NCBI RefSeq assembly: GCF_001650195.1 | Contig: NZ_LXYR01000032.1 | Coordinates: 1 to 58,620, forward strand | Source: Phormidesmis priestleyi BC1401 | GTDB taxonomy: Bacteria; Cyanobacteriota; Cyanobacteriia; Leptolyngbyales; Leptolyngbyaceae | Direction: 5' to 3' | DNA length: 58,620 nucleotides | Part shown: piece after piece, positions 17,978 through 26,391 of the stretch | How positions within the stretch are numbered: position 1 is the first letter of the stretch | Layout: every line of letters starts with the position of its first letter | Made by a program: the position numbers and the translations under genes | Notes under the pieces: model-generated | The model's database searches: none | What the model was told of the DNA's origin: nothing | Seen by the model: only the letters and a program-made list of their open reading frames with translations

Positions 17978-19015
<1,038 letters not shown>

Positions 19016-19117: not shown

Positions 19118-19134
19118 ATTCAATAAAACTGAAT
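19118..19134 (+). promoter_or_regulatory. putative ArsR operator overlapping the arsR start
   Basis: ATTCA-N7-TGAAT (ATTCAATAAAACTGAAT) is a perfect dyad. Its last bases include the first two of the arsR start codon (19133). The AT-rich TTCA...TGAA dyad resembles ArsR/SmtB sites. Autorepression is inferred. Confidence 0.5.
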
Positions 19135-19462
19135 GCAAAAGACTACTTCACTTCCATCAACTTTAATTATTTTGGGGTTTCATGCACTTTCTGACCCTTT
19201 GCGGGTGCAAGTCGTTGATCTGCTGCGAGAGCAAGAACTTTGTGTGTGTGATCTCTGCGGAGTTTTGGAGGTGACGCAATCTAAATTATCTTTTCACCTC
19301 AAAACTCTAAAGGAAGCCCAGCTAGTTAAGGCTCGGCAAGAAGGGCGTTGGATCTACTACAGCTTGAATTTGTCCCAGTTTGTAGTTCTAGAGCAGTATC
19401 TCGCAGAACTGCGTCGCTTTAGCCCAATCCTACCGCCCCGAATCTGCAAAGACGAGGAATAA
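19133..19462 (+). CDS. arsR: ArsR-family arsenite-responsive repressor
   Basis: This 109-aa winged-helix repressor has ELCVCDLCGVLEVTQSKLSF, the alpha-3 metal loop CVCDLC plus recognition helix typical of As(III)/Sb(III)-sensing ArsR, and the wing KARQEGRWIYYSL. It dissociates from DNA on binding arsenite. It lies between gap and acr3; dyads before both arsR and acr3 are likely targets. Length and motif order are canonical. Confidence 0.92.
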   Translation: MQKTTSLPSTLIILGFHALSDPLRVQVVDLLREQELCVCDLCGVLEVTQSKLSFHLKTLKEAQLVKARQEGRWIYYSLNLSQFVVLEQYLAELRRFSPILPPRICKDEE

Positions 19463-19511: not shown

Positions 19512-19539
19512 TTGACAAATCAATTTTTCTTGAAATAAT
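19512..19539 (+). promoter_or_regulatory. acr3 promoter with embedded ArsR-like dyad
   Basis: TTGACA (19512-19517) and AATAAT (19534-19539) are spaced 16 bp apart. The dyad ATCAA-N6-TTGAA (19519-19534) fills the spacer, so bound repressor would block RNA polymerase. TSS would be about 40 nt before the acr3 start. Confidence 0.6.
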
Positions 19540-19586: not shown

Positions 19587-20669
19587 ATGAGACAATCCGT
19601 TTCCCAAACAAAACCTCTTTCTAAGCAACTGTCTTTTCTCGATCGCTACCTAACCCTCTGGATTTTTCTAGCAATGGCGATCGGGGTTGGCATTGGCTAT
19701 TTTTTTCCTAGTGTCGATGTTGTGATCAATCAGTTTCAGGTCGGCACAACCAATATTCCAATCGCGATTGGCTTAATTTTGATGATGTATCCACCTCTCG
19801 CAAAGGTGCGATACGAGGAATTAGGCGATGTGTTTCGCAACGGCAAAATTTTGGGCATATCACTGCTTCAAAATTGGGTGATTGGACCGATTTTGATGTT
19901 TGCGCTGGCGATCGTCTTTTTGCGCGACTACCCAGACTACATGGTGGGCTTGATTTTAATTGGGCTGGCGCGATGTATCGCAATGGTTGTCGTCTGGAGC
20001 GATTTAGCAAAAGGCAACACCGAGTACACTGCTGGACTGGTGGCGTTTAACAGCATCTTTCAAGTCATTTTCTACAGTCCCTATGCCTGGTTTTTCATCT
20101 CAGTCTTGCCGCCGCTATTTGGCTTGCAGGGCAGCACCGTTAACATCAGCATTGCAGAGATTGCTAAGAGCGTATTCATTTACTTGGGCATTCCCTTTAT
20201 CGCCGGATTCTTTACCCGATACTTTTTAGTGAAAGCGATGGGTAGACGCTGGTATCACGAAGAGTTTGTGCCTAGAATTAGTCCGATCACGCTGATTGCG
20301 TTGCTGTTTACGATCGTCGTAATGTTCAGCCTTAAAGGAAGTTTGATTGTACAAATTCCTTTAGATGTAGTTCGCATTGCGATTCCGCTATTGATCTACT
20401 TTGTGATTATGTTTTTCACGAGTTTCTACATGGCGTGGAAAATTAAAGCGGACTACTCGAAAGCGGCAAGTGTAGCATTTACCGCCGCAGGCAACAATTT
20501 TGAACTCGCGATCGCCGTTGCCGTTGCTGTGTTTGGCATCAATTCTGGTGCGGCGTTTGCAGCCGTGATTGGTCCGCTCGTAGAAGTGCCCGTGTTAATT
20601 GGTTTGGTAAACGTCTCATTTTGGTTTCAGCGCCGATTTTTTGTGTCTTCTCAACCCAATGCCCGTTAG
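19587..20669 (+). CDS. acr3: ACR3-family arsenite efflux permease
   Basis: This 360-aa permease with about ten membrane segments expels As(III) through the plasma membrane. Family marks include [17 protein letters not shown], the essential Cys in [12 protein letters not shown], and [18 protein letters not shown]. It starts at ATG 19587 shortly after an ArsR-controlled promoter. The following phosphatase gene begins 16 bp after its stop, so they are co-transcribed. Confidence 0.95.
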
Positions 20670-20685: not shown

Positions 20686-21147
20686 ATGACACAGCCATTT
20701 ATTCAACCGATCGCACAAAACGTCTGGTGGGTAATTCCCGGCAAACTGGCAGGAGTGCGAAAGCCAACATCCGAGGAATTGAATGAGCTACAGACTGCAG
20801 GGATAGGCGCGATCGTATCCGTGATGGATGATCCGTCTAATCTCGATGTCTACAAATACGCGGACATTCCTCATCTTTGGCTACCTATTAAAGGCGGCAC
20901 AGCACCAACCCAGGAACAAATTCAGGAGTTACAAGACTTTGTAAATCATCAAAACCAGCTTGGCAATGCTGTAGCCATTCACTGCACGAGTGGACGGCGA
21001 CGAACAGGAACGATGCTGGCAGCTTATTTAATCAATTCTGGTTCGTCCTATAACCAAGCGATGCAGACGATACAAAATGCGAATCCTGATGTTGACCTGC
21101 GCGAGGCTCAAACAACCTTCCTGCAAGCCTTAGCAGGATTGAAATAA
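20686..21147 (+). CDS. CX5R phosphatase in ars operon, possible arsenate reductase
   Basis: 153 aa from ATG 20686 (MTQPFIQPIAQNVWWVIPGK); the frame extends back into acr3 but this start fits. It has the dual-specificity phosphatase layout: a variable N-terminal beta strand pair, GIGAIVSVMDD, IPHLWLPIKGGTAPT as general-acid region, and the P-loop VAIHCTSGRRRTGTMLAAYL (Cys-X5-Arg). The reaction could be dephosphorylation of a protein or small molecule. Because it occupies the place where arsC usually stands between acr3 and arsH, thiol-based arsenate reduction is a hypothesis. No extra resolving cysteine is visible beyond the P-loop. Confidence 0.8.
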   Translation: MTQPFIQPIAQNVWWVIPGKLAGVRKPTSEELNELQTAGIGAIVSVMDDPSNLDVYKYADIPHLWLPIKGGTAPTQEQIQELQDFVNHQNQLGNAVAIHCTSGRRRTGTMLAAYLINSGSSYNQAMQTIQNANPDVDLREAQTTFLQALAGLK

Positions 21148-21192: not shown

Positions 21193-21828
21193 ATGAGCAA
21201 ATTTGATCATCCTCCCAGAATTCTATTTTTATATGGCTCTCTCAGAGAGCGTTCATATAGCCGTCTTGCTGCCGAAGAAGCTGCTCGAATTATTCAGGAA
21301 TTTGGGGCAGAGGTGAGATTTTTTGATCCGCGTGAGCTACCAATTTATGGCAGCGTGCCTGACACCCATCCCAAAGTGCAAGAGTTACGCGAGTTAAGTC
21401 AATGGTCAGAAGGGCAGGTTTGGTCTAGCCCAGAGATGCACGGCAATATTACTGGCATTATGAAAAACCAAATTGATTGGATTCCTCTAACCATTGGAGC
21501 CGTTCGCCCGACTCAAGGTAGAACATTAGCGGTTATGCAAGTCTCTGGAGGTTCCCAGTCCTTCAATGCAGTCAATACCCTGCGGTTGCTCGGTCGCTGG
21601 ATGCGGATGTTTACGATTCCTAATCAGTCTTCGATCGCCAAAGCCTATCAAGAATTTAACGAAGACGGCACGCTAAAAGACTCGCCTTATCGCGATCGTA
21701 TGATTGACGTAATGGAAGAACTCTACAAGTTCACAACGCTCTTGAGAGAGCAAGTAGATTACTTAACCGATCGCCACAGCGAACGCAAGGACAAAGCAGC
21801 AAAGCAGTTTATGATCAAAAATAGCTAA
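21193..21828 (+). CDS. arsH: ArsH NADPH-dependent FMN oxidoreductase
   Basis: This 211-aa flavoprotein of the NADPH:FMN reductase fold has [20 protein letters not shown] as phosphate loop, [20 protein letters not shown], and [20 protein letters not shown]. ArsH oxidises trivalent organoarsenicals and reduces quinones or iron. It is 45 bp after the phosphatase and closes the arsenic cluster. Length and motifs match cyanobacterial ArsH. Confidence 0.93.
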
Positions 21829-22164
21829 ATGAATGAGGCAACCATCATGACCTTCATCACAACCGGATACAAACACATTGAACTCAACGAGAACAATGTG
21901 CCGATCGTGGCAGGAACAACCATGAAGGTCGTTGAGCTAGTGACCTCACACCTTGTCTACGGCTGGAGTCCTGAAGAATTGCATTTTCAGTATCCCCACG
22001 TTGCTTTGAGCAAAATCTATTCAGCATTGGCTTACTACTGGGATCACAAAGCGGACATTGACGCAGATATGCAGCGACGGCTAGAGTTTGCAGAGCGATC
22101 GTGTCAAGAAGCAGATCCTTCTCCGATCGTTGCAAAGCTTCAAGCGAAAAGGCTGTTGCCGTGA
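21829..22164 (+). CDS. DUF433 antitoxin-like protein
   Basis: 111 aa; an internal ATG at 21847 preceded by GAGG may be the real start. It shows the DUF433 helix-turn-helix pattern: GYKHIELNENNVPIVAGTTM, VVELVTSHLVYGWSPEELHF, and LSKIYSALAYYWDHKADIDA. DUF433 proteins are antitoxins for DUF5615 PIN-like nucleases. Its stop (TGA 22162-22164) overlaps a GTG (22161) that would start the partner gene. Confidence 0.8.
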   Translation: MNEATIMTFITTGYKHIELNENNVPIVAGTTMKVVELVTSHLVYGWSPEELHFQYPHVALSKIYSALAYYWDHKADIDADMQRRLEFAERSCQEADPSPIVAKLQAKRLLP

Positions 22165-22508
22165 CGATCACTTTGTAAATGGATGACAACGTTCCCCGCC
22201 AGATCACGGTCGGGTTGAGGCTACGAGAGGTGGATGTCCTTTGTATCCAAGAAGACGGTCGGAAGGGGATTCCTGATCCGCTTGTTTTAGATCGAGCGAA
22301 CGAACTTCAGAGAGTCTTGTTCACTAGAGATGATGATTTTTTAGCGATTGTTAAGCAGCTTCAGCAAAAAGAATCGAGTTTTTCAGGAGTCATTTATGCT
22401 CCTCAACAGCTTGTCAGCATCGGTGATTGCGTCAGAGATCTAGAACTCATTGCAAAGACTTGCGATTTGGAGGATTTCACAAGCCACGTTCAATATTTGC
22501 CACTTTAG
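22161..22508 (+). CDS. DUF5615 PIN-like toxin with premature stop
   Basis: From GTG 22161, overlapping the DUF433 stop as GTGA, the frame reads V-T-I-T-L, then TAA (22176-22178), then ATG GAT GAC AAC (MDDNVPRQITVGLRLREVDV). Family members normally read M-x-I-x-L-Y-M-D-x-x-V-P, so TAA probably replaced a Tyr codon. The remaining 109 aa from ATG 22179 contain PIN-like acidic residues in MDDN and LFTRDDDFLAI. Because ATG directly follows TAA, re-initiation could still make a protein lacking six residues of the first strand. Confidence 0.7.
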
Positions 22509-24915: not shown

Positions 24916-26391
24916 TTAATTAGACTTTCTGCATAAATACTCCCTCACCTGGTATTCTAAAAACTTCCGTCCTTTGTCATCTTGAGCATAGTGAGTTTTA
25001 ATAAAACTACGCGTTCGTCGTACCATATACAGCTTCATTAAATCTCGCCAATCATCAGCGTGATCACTAAACTCAAATGCTCGTAGCGATCATATTAGCA
25101 CCTGATGCTTCCGCCTGAATGCCGCTTCGCCTCCTAGCTCATACAGAAGTTGTTCTGGACGAATGCCTAAATCTTTATCTTCAGGAATAAATAACCGTAG
25201 CTGTGCTGATAAGTCTAAATAGGTTTTGTTATGGGGCGTTGCGGTTAGCAAAATGCATTTGCTTTCGTTAATCGCAATGTATTCTTGAATGGCTCGATAG
25301 CGTTTTCCATCTGTGTTGCGGAGGTTATGGCTTTCGTCGATCAACACGACTCGATAGTGCCGCAAGTTAGGTAACTCGATTTGAACACGACTCATCGAAA
25401 TTACTTCAGCAATCAGCCGATATTCCCGCACATAATCGCACCACACAGAGACGAGATTTTTGGGGCAGATGACCAACGTTTCTAACCACAAATCTTCCTA
25501 TAGAATTCGTGCCAGCGCAGAACCCACCATCGTTTTACCCAATCCGACGACATCGCCAATCAACACGCCGCCGTGTTTGTTGACGTGCTGGGCAGCGATC
25601 TTCACAGCGGCACTTTGAAAGTCAAACAAGCGATCGCGAAACTCTTTTGGCACTCGATACTCAGACAACCCGATTCGCGCTTCTTGCGACAAGTGATAAG
25701 CGATCTTTAGATAAATGTGATAGGGCGAAATCAATGCCTCCCGCGCCCAGCTTTCATCGATCAGTTGCGCGAGTTCTTTAGGAATATCAAGACAAAAGCG
25801 ATCGCTCCAAAGTCCGTCAAACCAGCGTTCTAATTTATTCGTCGCATCATGATCTAAAACATCGACGTTCAACTCTCCCTGATGGTGCAACCCAGAAAGC
25901 GTTAAGTTGCTGCTGCCAAGAAACCCGATCGTCGGTAAATTGGGGTTATTTTGGTAAATCAAATACAGCTTGGCGTGAAGTGAGTGTCGCAGATAGAGCT
26001 TGACGACAAATTTTCCTGCCTTGAGCTGATGGGCAAGTCGCTGCAAACCCGCTTCATCTTCGTTGGTCGGTGCTCCGATCGTCAGTTGCTCTCGAAACTC
26101 TTGCGCGGCTTGTTTCTTTAATCGAATTGCTTCACGCTGATCGATGTCTCATTCTGAGCCAGTCAGCGAAAGCGCACTTTCAAGCTGTTGACGCGGCATC
26201 TTTTGCATTCCCACAATCAGCCGACAGCAGCCTTGATCTCCGCCTGGAAGCTGCTCAATTAGGCGATCGAGTTGCTGCCAGCCTCGCAGATTAAAGTAAT
26301 TCACACAGAAGTCTGCTCGTTTTGCAGCTTGCAGCGTTTCTCTCAAAACGGGCAACAACTTTAAGTCAATGTTGTCAAAAATTCGTGGCAC
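24916..26391 (-). pseudogene. PLD-nuclease/SNF2-type helicase with three in-frame stops
   Basis: One frame from about 26391 to 24916 encodes a PLD-like domain (HAKLYLIYQNN...TIGFLGSSNLTLSGL) followed by a helicase N-lobe: GGVLIGDVVGLGKTMVGSAL (Walker A), LETLVICPKNLVSVW, VVLIDESHNLRN (DEAH-like) and CILLTATPHNK. Stops interrupt it at 26149-26151 (TGA), 25498-25500 (TAG) and 25090-25092 (TGA), yet the frame never shifts and similarity continues through each stop, ending with the segment DHADDWRDLMKLYMVRRTRS. The second RecA lobe is missing. Such PLD-helicases often belong to restriction or defence loci. Confidence 0.8.

Follow-up and report, generated by a model that had tools for sequence, protein, structure and literature searches.

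The DNA analyzed here, referred to as the window, is a stretch of 58,620 nucleotides on a contig of a 5.55 Mb genome, which consists of 213 contigs and is 99.99% complete. Judging from the phylum of its relatives, this contig is of cyanobacterial origin. Four genes on its forward strand follow one another in the order arsR, acr3, DSP and arsH (Table 1), where DSP denotes an atypical protein of the dual-specificity phosphatase type. A sequence-only reading of the window had described this cluster as arsR-acr3-X-arsH, in which a DSP-like X with the P-loop HCTSGRRRT starts 16 bp after acr3. This was borne out by the ORFs, the DNA and the profile searches, the 16 bp being counted from the acr3 stop codon to the ATG of DSP; another 45 bp separate the end of DSP from arsH. 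The listed DSP ORF starts at a TTG at position 20641, within acr3, and the ATG at 20686 is the likelier start. The encoded protein matches the profiles PF22785 (69.2 bits, E-value 5e-19, cut-off 27), PF22784 (68.2 bits, 1e-18, cut-off 27) and DSPc PF00782 (53.4 bits, 3e-14, cut-off 33.5). No arsC was found between or beside the four genes.

Table 1. Genes and putative control elements of the arsenic locus in the window.
Feature	Position	Strand	Evidence
arsR/smtB-family repressor	19133-19462	+	HTH_5 PF01022; HTH_metalloreg NF033788 over cut-off
Promoter-like site TTGACA-16-AATAAT (11/12), upstream of acr3	19512-19539	+	Promoter scan
Palindrome ATCAA-N6-TTGAA, overlapping the promoter-like site	19519-19534		Operator scan
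acr3, As(III) efflux permease	19587-20669	+	TIGR00832, 470 bits (cut-off 282.8)
DSP, atypical, 153 aa	20686-21147	+	Pfam DSP profiles; P-loop HCTSGRRRT, one Cys
arsH, NADPH-FMN reductase	21193-21828	+	TIGR02690, 381 bits (cut-off 292)

The promoter-like site and the palindrome suggest that acr3, DSP and arsH may form a unit controlled by ArsR. The palindrome resembles the operator consensus of ArsR/SmtB repressors. The operator scan of the window gave five matches compared with 3.4 expected by chance, which is not significant. The promoter scan gave five compared with 4.8 expected, which does not exceed chance either, and the site that agrees at 11 of 12 positions sits where an acr3 promoter should. 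A GAPDH gene at 17990-19015 was considered as a partner of ArsJ and was rejected: it passes the model for type I GAPDH in general, but its score for the ArsJ-associated family (360.8) is below the cut-off of 450, and a search of the window genome for ArsJ found none. The arsH stop codon is immediately followed by a DUF433 gene and then a DUF5615 gene (21829-22508), and the two presumably are a toxin-antitoxin-type pair appended to the ars operon. On the reverse strand, at 25090-26046, a PLD-like/NgoFVII-like ORF lies end to end with an ORF containing an SNF2-related domain, and these are perhaps one protein split over two ORFs.

The distribution of the DSP was determined with a whole-protein search, in which 12 of 292 genomes of the phylum matched the window DSP. 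Ten of these, the window genome included, have an identity of at least 46%, and all ten genes adjoin at least one ars gene, with arsH as the sole ars gene beside the DSP in L016 and L017. The other two genomes match at 31-33% identity and without an ars neighbor. With 10 of 292 genomes, the ars-type DSP is not common in the phylum. It occurs in 10 of the 113 genomes with acr3 or arsC compared with none of the 179 genomes with neither (Fisher p = 6e-5). Nine plasmid records also match the DSP. The five with more than 60% identity are all cyanobacterial, two of them are typed as conjugative, and the four that were inspected all carry ars clusters.

A scan of genome contigs yielded 96 DSP relatives, and the locus statistics rest on the 80 loci that were kept, which by their titles represent 74 assemblies. 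Two peptide patterns served as queries; one of them spells out the P-loop, so that the scan favors this loop. By title or taxon, 78 of the 80 loci are cyanobacterial; the remaining two are in MAGs titled Gracilibacteria and SAR324, which are possibly misbinned. A gene for ArsR, Acr3, ArsC, ArsH, ArsJ or an aquaporin-like protein lies within 5 kb of the DSP in 73 of the 80 loci. The seven loci without such a neighbor are L059, L061, L112, L113, L114, L122 and L132; four of them are truncated, with the sequence ending on one side less than 1.7 kb from the DSP gene, and a second type of ArsR occurs near the DSP of L061. Where the gene immediately upstream of the DSP could be scored (65 loci), it encodes ArsC in 24, Acr3 in 19, ArsH in 16, an AqpS-like protein in four and PstS in two. 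Loci with at least 4 kb upstream and at least 2.5 kb downstream are called well-spanned, which applies to 55 of the 80, and 45 of these have Acr3 or an aquaporin-like gene within 5 kb. The DSP is retained next to ars gene sets of several kinds, which include two Acr3 types. Its membership of arsenic operons is real and conserved, and its distribution is best explained if it is a protein dedicated to them. A compact set of ArsJ-type GAPDH, acr3 and DSP, with neither ArsC nor ArsJ in the locus, was found in four loci (L115, L116, L117, L129), among them those of Leptolyngbya PCC 7375, Adonisia and an uncultured Leptolyngbya. Genome-wide profile searches found neither a TIGR02689 ArsC nor ArsJ in these three genomes (G313, G314, G324); a fourth (G315, with L117) has ArsC elsewhere in the genome. 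An MFS transporter recurs in the DSP loci (L027 7526-8695, L054, L077, L079); it received no specific NCBIfam name, and its best matches are weak and to tetracycline-efflux models.

The AlphaFold2 model of the window DSP has a mean pLDDT of 93.9 and shows the PTP/DSP fold. Among the solved structures listed, the best matches are DUSP23/VHZ (2IMG, 4ERC) and TkPTP (5Z5A) (VIA Z 21.6-21.8, 2IMG Z 21.8). VHZ and TkPTP superpose on the model with an rmsd of 1.9-2.1 over 144 residues at 27-28% identity, and further DUSPs, DUSP5 and DUSP10 among them, equal them to within one Z unit. In the phylogenetic tree, the 88 family rows form one clade with a support of 99/99 against ten other DSPs, with some outgroup branches being very long. 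The dN/dS ratios of 0.06-0.36 in eight family pairs indicate purifying selection on the family. The best explanation for these observations is that the family is a cyanobacterial, ars-operon-specific offshoot of the DSPs whose fold most resembles that of DUSP23 (VHZ) and of archaeal PTPs.

The active site of the family departs from that of other DSPs. In the window DSP, the P-loop spans residues 99-107, with H99, C100, R106 and T107, and C100 is the only cysteine of the protein. Gly70 and Gly71 are located at the site of the general-acid Asp of DSPs. Residues were counted in 90 family sequences, 88 of them distinct, after five of the 84 DSP matches of the 80 loci had been dropped as short or containing an in-frame stop. 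H99, C100, G103, R106 and T107 are present in 90/90, which is partly so by construction because of the P-loop search pattern. Position 70, which lies outside both search patterns, holds Gly in 86 and Ile in four of the 90 sequences and never Asp. At position 105, where classical P-loops have Gly, 85 sequences carry Arg, four His and one Lys. The 14 sequences found by the whole-protein search, without patterns, all have an HCX5R(S/T) loop with C100 and R106, and 13 of the 14 have Gly70 and Arg105. When aligned to the solved bacterial DSP 25xa, this region has no gaps, and the Asp of 25xa falls opposite Gly70. As a control, the 30 PF22785 loci listed were compared, of which ten belong to the ars family and 20 are other DSPs. 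Among these 20, Asp occupies position 70 in each of the 11 with HCxxGxGR and lies inside the P-loop in each of the nine others. Going by these aligned residues, the ars family is the only one among the 30 loci without an acid at either place. This supports the view that the altered active site disfavors ordinary phosphatase chemistry, with the oxyanion-binding Cys/Arg loop being kept. The family has other conserved acids, namely D48/D49 and a Glu or Asp at position 137 in 89 of the 90 sequences. For SsoPTP, TkPTP and VHZ, PMC12848742 reports backup general acids on the E-loop or Q-loop, and by analogy D48/D49 or residue 137 could take this part and enable phosphatase activity. In our own reading of the ungapped register, it is Leu138 that would stand at the position of VHZ Glu134; in the gapped phmmer alignment of 25xa, the register is displaced by one.

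In the sequence-only reading, the DSP was thought to occupy the place of arsC. This is compatible with the window genome, in which no LMW-type arsC and no R773-type arsC over the cut-off was found, but it is not supported as a rule, since ArsC lies within 5 kb of the DSP in 32 of the 55 well-spanned loci and is absent in 23. ArsJ is found in nine of the 55 loci, ArsC and ArsJ together in one and neither in 15, and the two avoid each other in these loci (p = 0.003, 55 well-spanned loci). The DSP thus occurs alongside the one arsenate route or the other. In the sample of 292 genomes, where ArsC means a TIGR02689 match at an E-value of at most 1e-10 alone and not the R773 type, acr3 occurs in 95 genomes and ArsC in 80, with 66 of the latter over the cut-off. 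Among the acr3-positive genomes, the DSP is present in 2/33 without arsC compared with 6/62 with arsC (p = 0.71). The other 31 of the 33 genomes have no ars-type DSP either, and the lack of an arsC in a given genome is therefore weak evidence. The DSP was also found in two genomes with arsC and without acr3, and across the 292 genomes it goes with arsC (8/80 compared with 2/212, p = 0.0007). With ArsC this close to the DSP in 32 of the 55 loci and no enrichment in arsC-less acr3-positive genomes, replacement of arsC was rejected as a rule across the phylum.

In single genomes, such a replacement could still hold. A follow-up search covered 48 genomes, comprising 34 with a DSP locus lacking ArsC and 14 picked with ArsC, and left out L083 and 26 of 76 loci. 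No TIGR02689 ArsC was found at an E-value of at most 1e-6 in 16 of the 34 genomes whose DSP locus lacks ArsC; three of their loci (L059, L112, L114) are also without ars neighbors, and 13 of the 16 genomes have Acr3. A profile search of G068 likewise found no TIGR02689-type ArsC. In the 18 arsC-poor genomes, formed by these 16 together with G068 and the genome of the window, R773-type ArsC never scored over the cut-off; weaker TIGR00014 matches below the cut-off occur in nine, including three with the compact set, and ArsJ occurs in seven. The absences are soft, as many of these genomes are MAGs. The better arsC-less cases are Leptolyngbya PCC 7375, which has its DSP on an 8.2 Mb scaffold, and the window genome. 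The latter bears on a separate arsC elsewhere in the genome, a point that the sequence-only reading had raised against its own proposal: profile searches found no LMW-type ArsC, no R773-type ArsC over the cut-off and no arsJ, but an Spx/MgsR-type relative of ArsC is present (TIGR01617, 110 bits; TIGR00014, 36 bits). There is also one ordinary LMW-PTP, and either protein might reduce arsenate.

In four loci, the DSP is part of a longer ORF. These are a 276-aa ORF combining a TIGR02689 ArsC with the DSP (L020), an in-frame ArsH-DSP fusion of 424 aa (L111; TIGR02690, 378 bits), and in-frame fusions to uracil phosphoribosyltransferase (L112 7593-9050) and to methylthioribulose-1-phosphate dehydratase (TIGR03328; L123 4291-5361). 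We know of no link between the latter two enzymes and arsenic metabolism. Each fusion is a single case, three of them in MAGs and L020 in a genome of about 230 contigs, and they may reflect read-through of neighbors or assembly effects. Four further loci carry two DSP copies in tandem (L080 1891-2812, L094 4829-5737, L095 7468-8450, L096 12-691). The upstream copy has the loop HCSTG[RK]HR in all four, and in the three full-length upstream copies LPIAID replaces LPxxGG, giving IleAsp for GlyGly, and D48 is His. The GRHRT and GKHRT loops of these paralogs resemble the Siw14 motif. An inositol pyrophosphatase of the Siw14/PFA-DSP type was therefore considered for the window DSP, but no such Pfam family is listed for it.

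Among known enzymes, the DSP shares the fold over nearly the whole chain and the HCX5R(S/T) loop with DUSP23/VHZ and TkPTP, and differs from them by Gly in place of the general-acid Asp, by Arg in place of the P-loop Gly and by its occurrence in ars operons. The Synechocystis-type ArsC (TIGR02689), which has the LMW-PTP fold and uses glutathione and glutaredoxin, has in common with it a Cys-based CX5R oxyanion loop, shared operons and one fusion. In contrast to this ArsC, the DSP belongs to another PTP subfamily, has only one cysteine in the window protein and has no profile match, with TIGR02689 and TIGR02691 absent among its NCBIfam matches at an E-value of at most 0.1. LMW-PTP-type arsenate reductases use further catalytic cysteines. 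The R773 type (TIGR00014/PF03960) is not among the Pfam or NCBIfam matches of the DSP. The Acr2p/Cdc25-type arsenate reductases, which have the rhodanese fold, also carry the catalytic Cys and Arg in a CX5R loop, and by analogy their use of glutathione and glutaredoxin would be expected for the DSP. Unlike these, the DSP has the DSP fold: the Cdc25/rhodanese fold is not among the structural matches listed for the model, which matches the DSP fold, and no rhodanese family is among the Pfam matches at an E-value of at most 1, a range in which HMMER filtering leaves few matches beyond about 0.1.

Arsenate reductases are a textbook example of how phosphatase-related folds gave rise to redox enzymes. 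The DSP is most likely, as we tentatively propose, a single-cysteine arsenate reductase dependent on glutathione and glutaredoxin, which would supplement ArsC and perhaps act alone in a few genomes. Arsenate would bind in the P-loop, and Cys100 would attack it as in PTP-fold arsenate reductases. Since the window DSP has one cysteine, an outside thiol would have to finish the reduction. Acr2p provides a precedent in which glutathione and then glutaredoxin do so. With a single cysteine and without the hydrolytic acid/base, the Cys-S-As(V) adduct would most likely be resolved by glutathione, with glutaredoxin doing the recycling, and the As(III) set free would be exported by Acr3 or an aquaporin-like channel. 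The DSP would work beside ArsC or ArsJ/GAPDH, and it may be the only dedicated enzyme in genomes like that of the window. As ArsC is nearby in so many well-spanned loci, a second reductase would often be redundant. For the PTP-type enzymes CD45 and Cdc25, arsenate reduction has been reported or proposed in PMC5514212 and PMC3422283, and the review PMC4284471 describes cyanobacterial arsenate reductases as glutaredoxin-dependent. With somewhat less confidence, the family can be seen as a further independent recruitment from the PTP superfamily, in which a VHZ/DUSP23-like DSP would have lost its general acid, become such a reductase and spread through cyanobacterial ars operons and plasmids, at times fused to ArsC or ArsH and in some genomes serving as the sole dedicated As(V) enzyme.

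A somewhat less likely explanation than this reductase is an arsenic-induced phosphatase that repairs phosphate metabolism or signaling under arsenate stress, with acyl phosphates, phosphoanhydrides and the ester 1-arseno-3-phosphoglycerate as candidate substrates. It would rely on D48/D49 or E137 as a backup acid, or would need none given a good leaving group. The fold and the active phosphatases VHZ and TkPTP as best relatives fit this alternative, as do PstS and As-type GAPDH among the neighbors, the conserved acids and the backup acids reported for close homologs in PMC12848742. However, the canonical acid is gone in all 90 sequences and the P-loop Gly is replaced, and ArsJ is near in a minority of the well-spanned loci. 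The loss of the acid in combination with a retained and more basic binding loop would suit a pseudophosphatase, i.e. a non-hydrolytic partner that binds arsenate or phosphate and delivers arsenate to ArsC or ArsH, or regulates them, in a complex. The fusions to both proteins point in the same direction. Pseudophosphatases commonly lose the nucleophilic Cys, but this residue is retained throughout the family, including the 14 sequences found without patterns. Moreover, ArsC is lacking from the surrounding 5 kb in 23 well-spanned loci, and the label "ArsC in locus" changes at least 22 times on the DSP tree, a count that incomplete loci inflate, while the DSP stays. We regard such a partner as an improbable explanation.

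Even less probable is a plain functional replacement that evolved where arsC was lost. It could hold in single genomes, such as the window genome and G068 without a recognized arsC or the 16 of 34 genomes without TIGR02689, but the missing anticorrelation with arsC and the frequency of ArsC in the loci count against it. The plasmid records, including the two typed as conjugative, would fit a passenger gene that has no part in arsenic metabolism and is carried along with the ars genes. This appears the least credible of the explanations, considering the several ars gene sets and two Acr3 types beside the DSP, the purifying selection and the conserved catalytic residues.

No description of a DSP in ars operons was found in searches of open-licence PMC papers. 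Passages of PMC4284471 name, as extra ars genes of cyanobacteria, those for PstS, Gap3, an MFS protein and a glyoxalase (putative), which are recurrent accessory genes of ars clusters like the DSP; a DSP is not mentioned in these passages, and "dual specific" has no occurrence in the main text. According to PMC3610870, the ars cluster of Nodularia spumigena lacks ArsC, and the table there skips nsp33530, located between the MFS gene and acr3. With its reactive Cys kept and the usual acid lost, this PTP-superfamily protein of arsenic operons is a good candidate for a new kind of enzyme acting on arsenate. If it does act in this way, a family that stems from a separate phosphatase branch, and that has shed the acid and retained the nucleophile, would reveal the steps by which a phosphatase can become an enzyme for arsenate. 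It would also matter for how cyanobacteria without a recognized arsC resist arsenic. Even with another activity, the DSP is a conserved arsenic gene under generic public labels, as its relatives are annotated only as "dual specificity protein phosphatase" (family protein) or "hypothetical protein".
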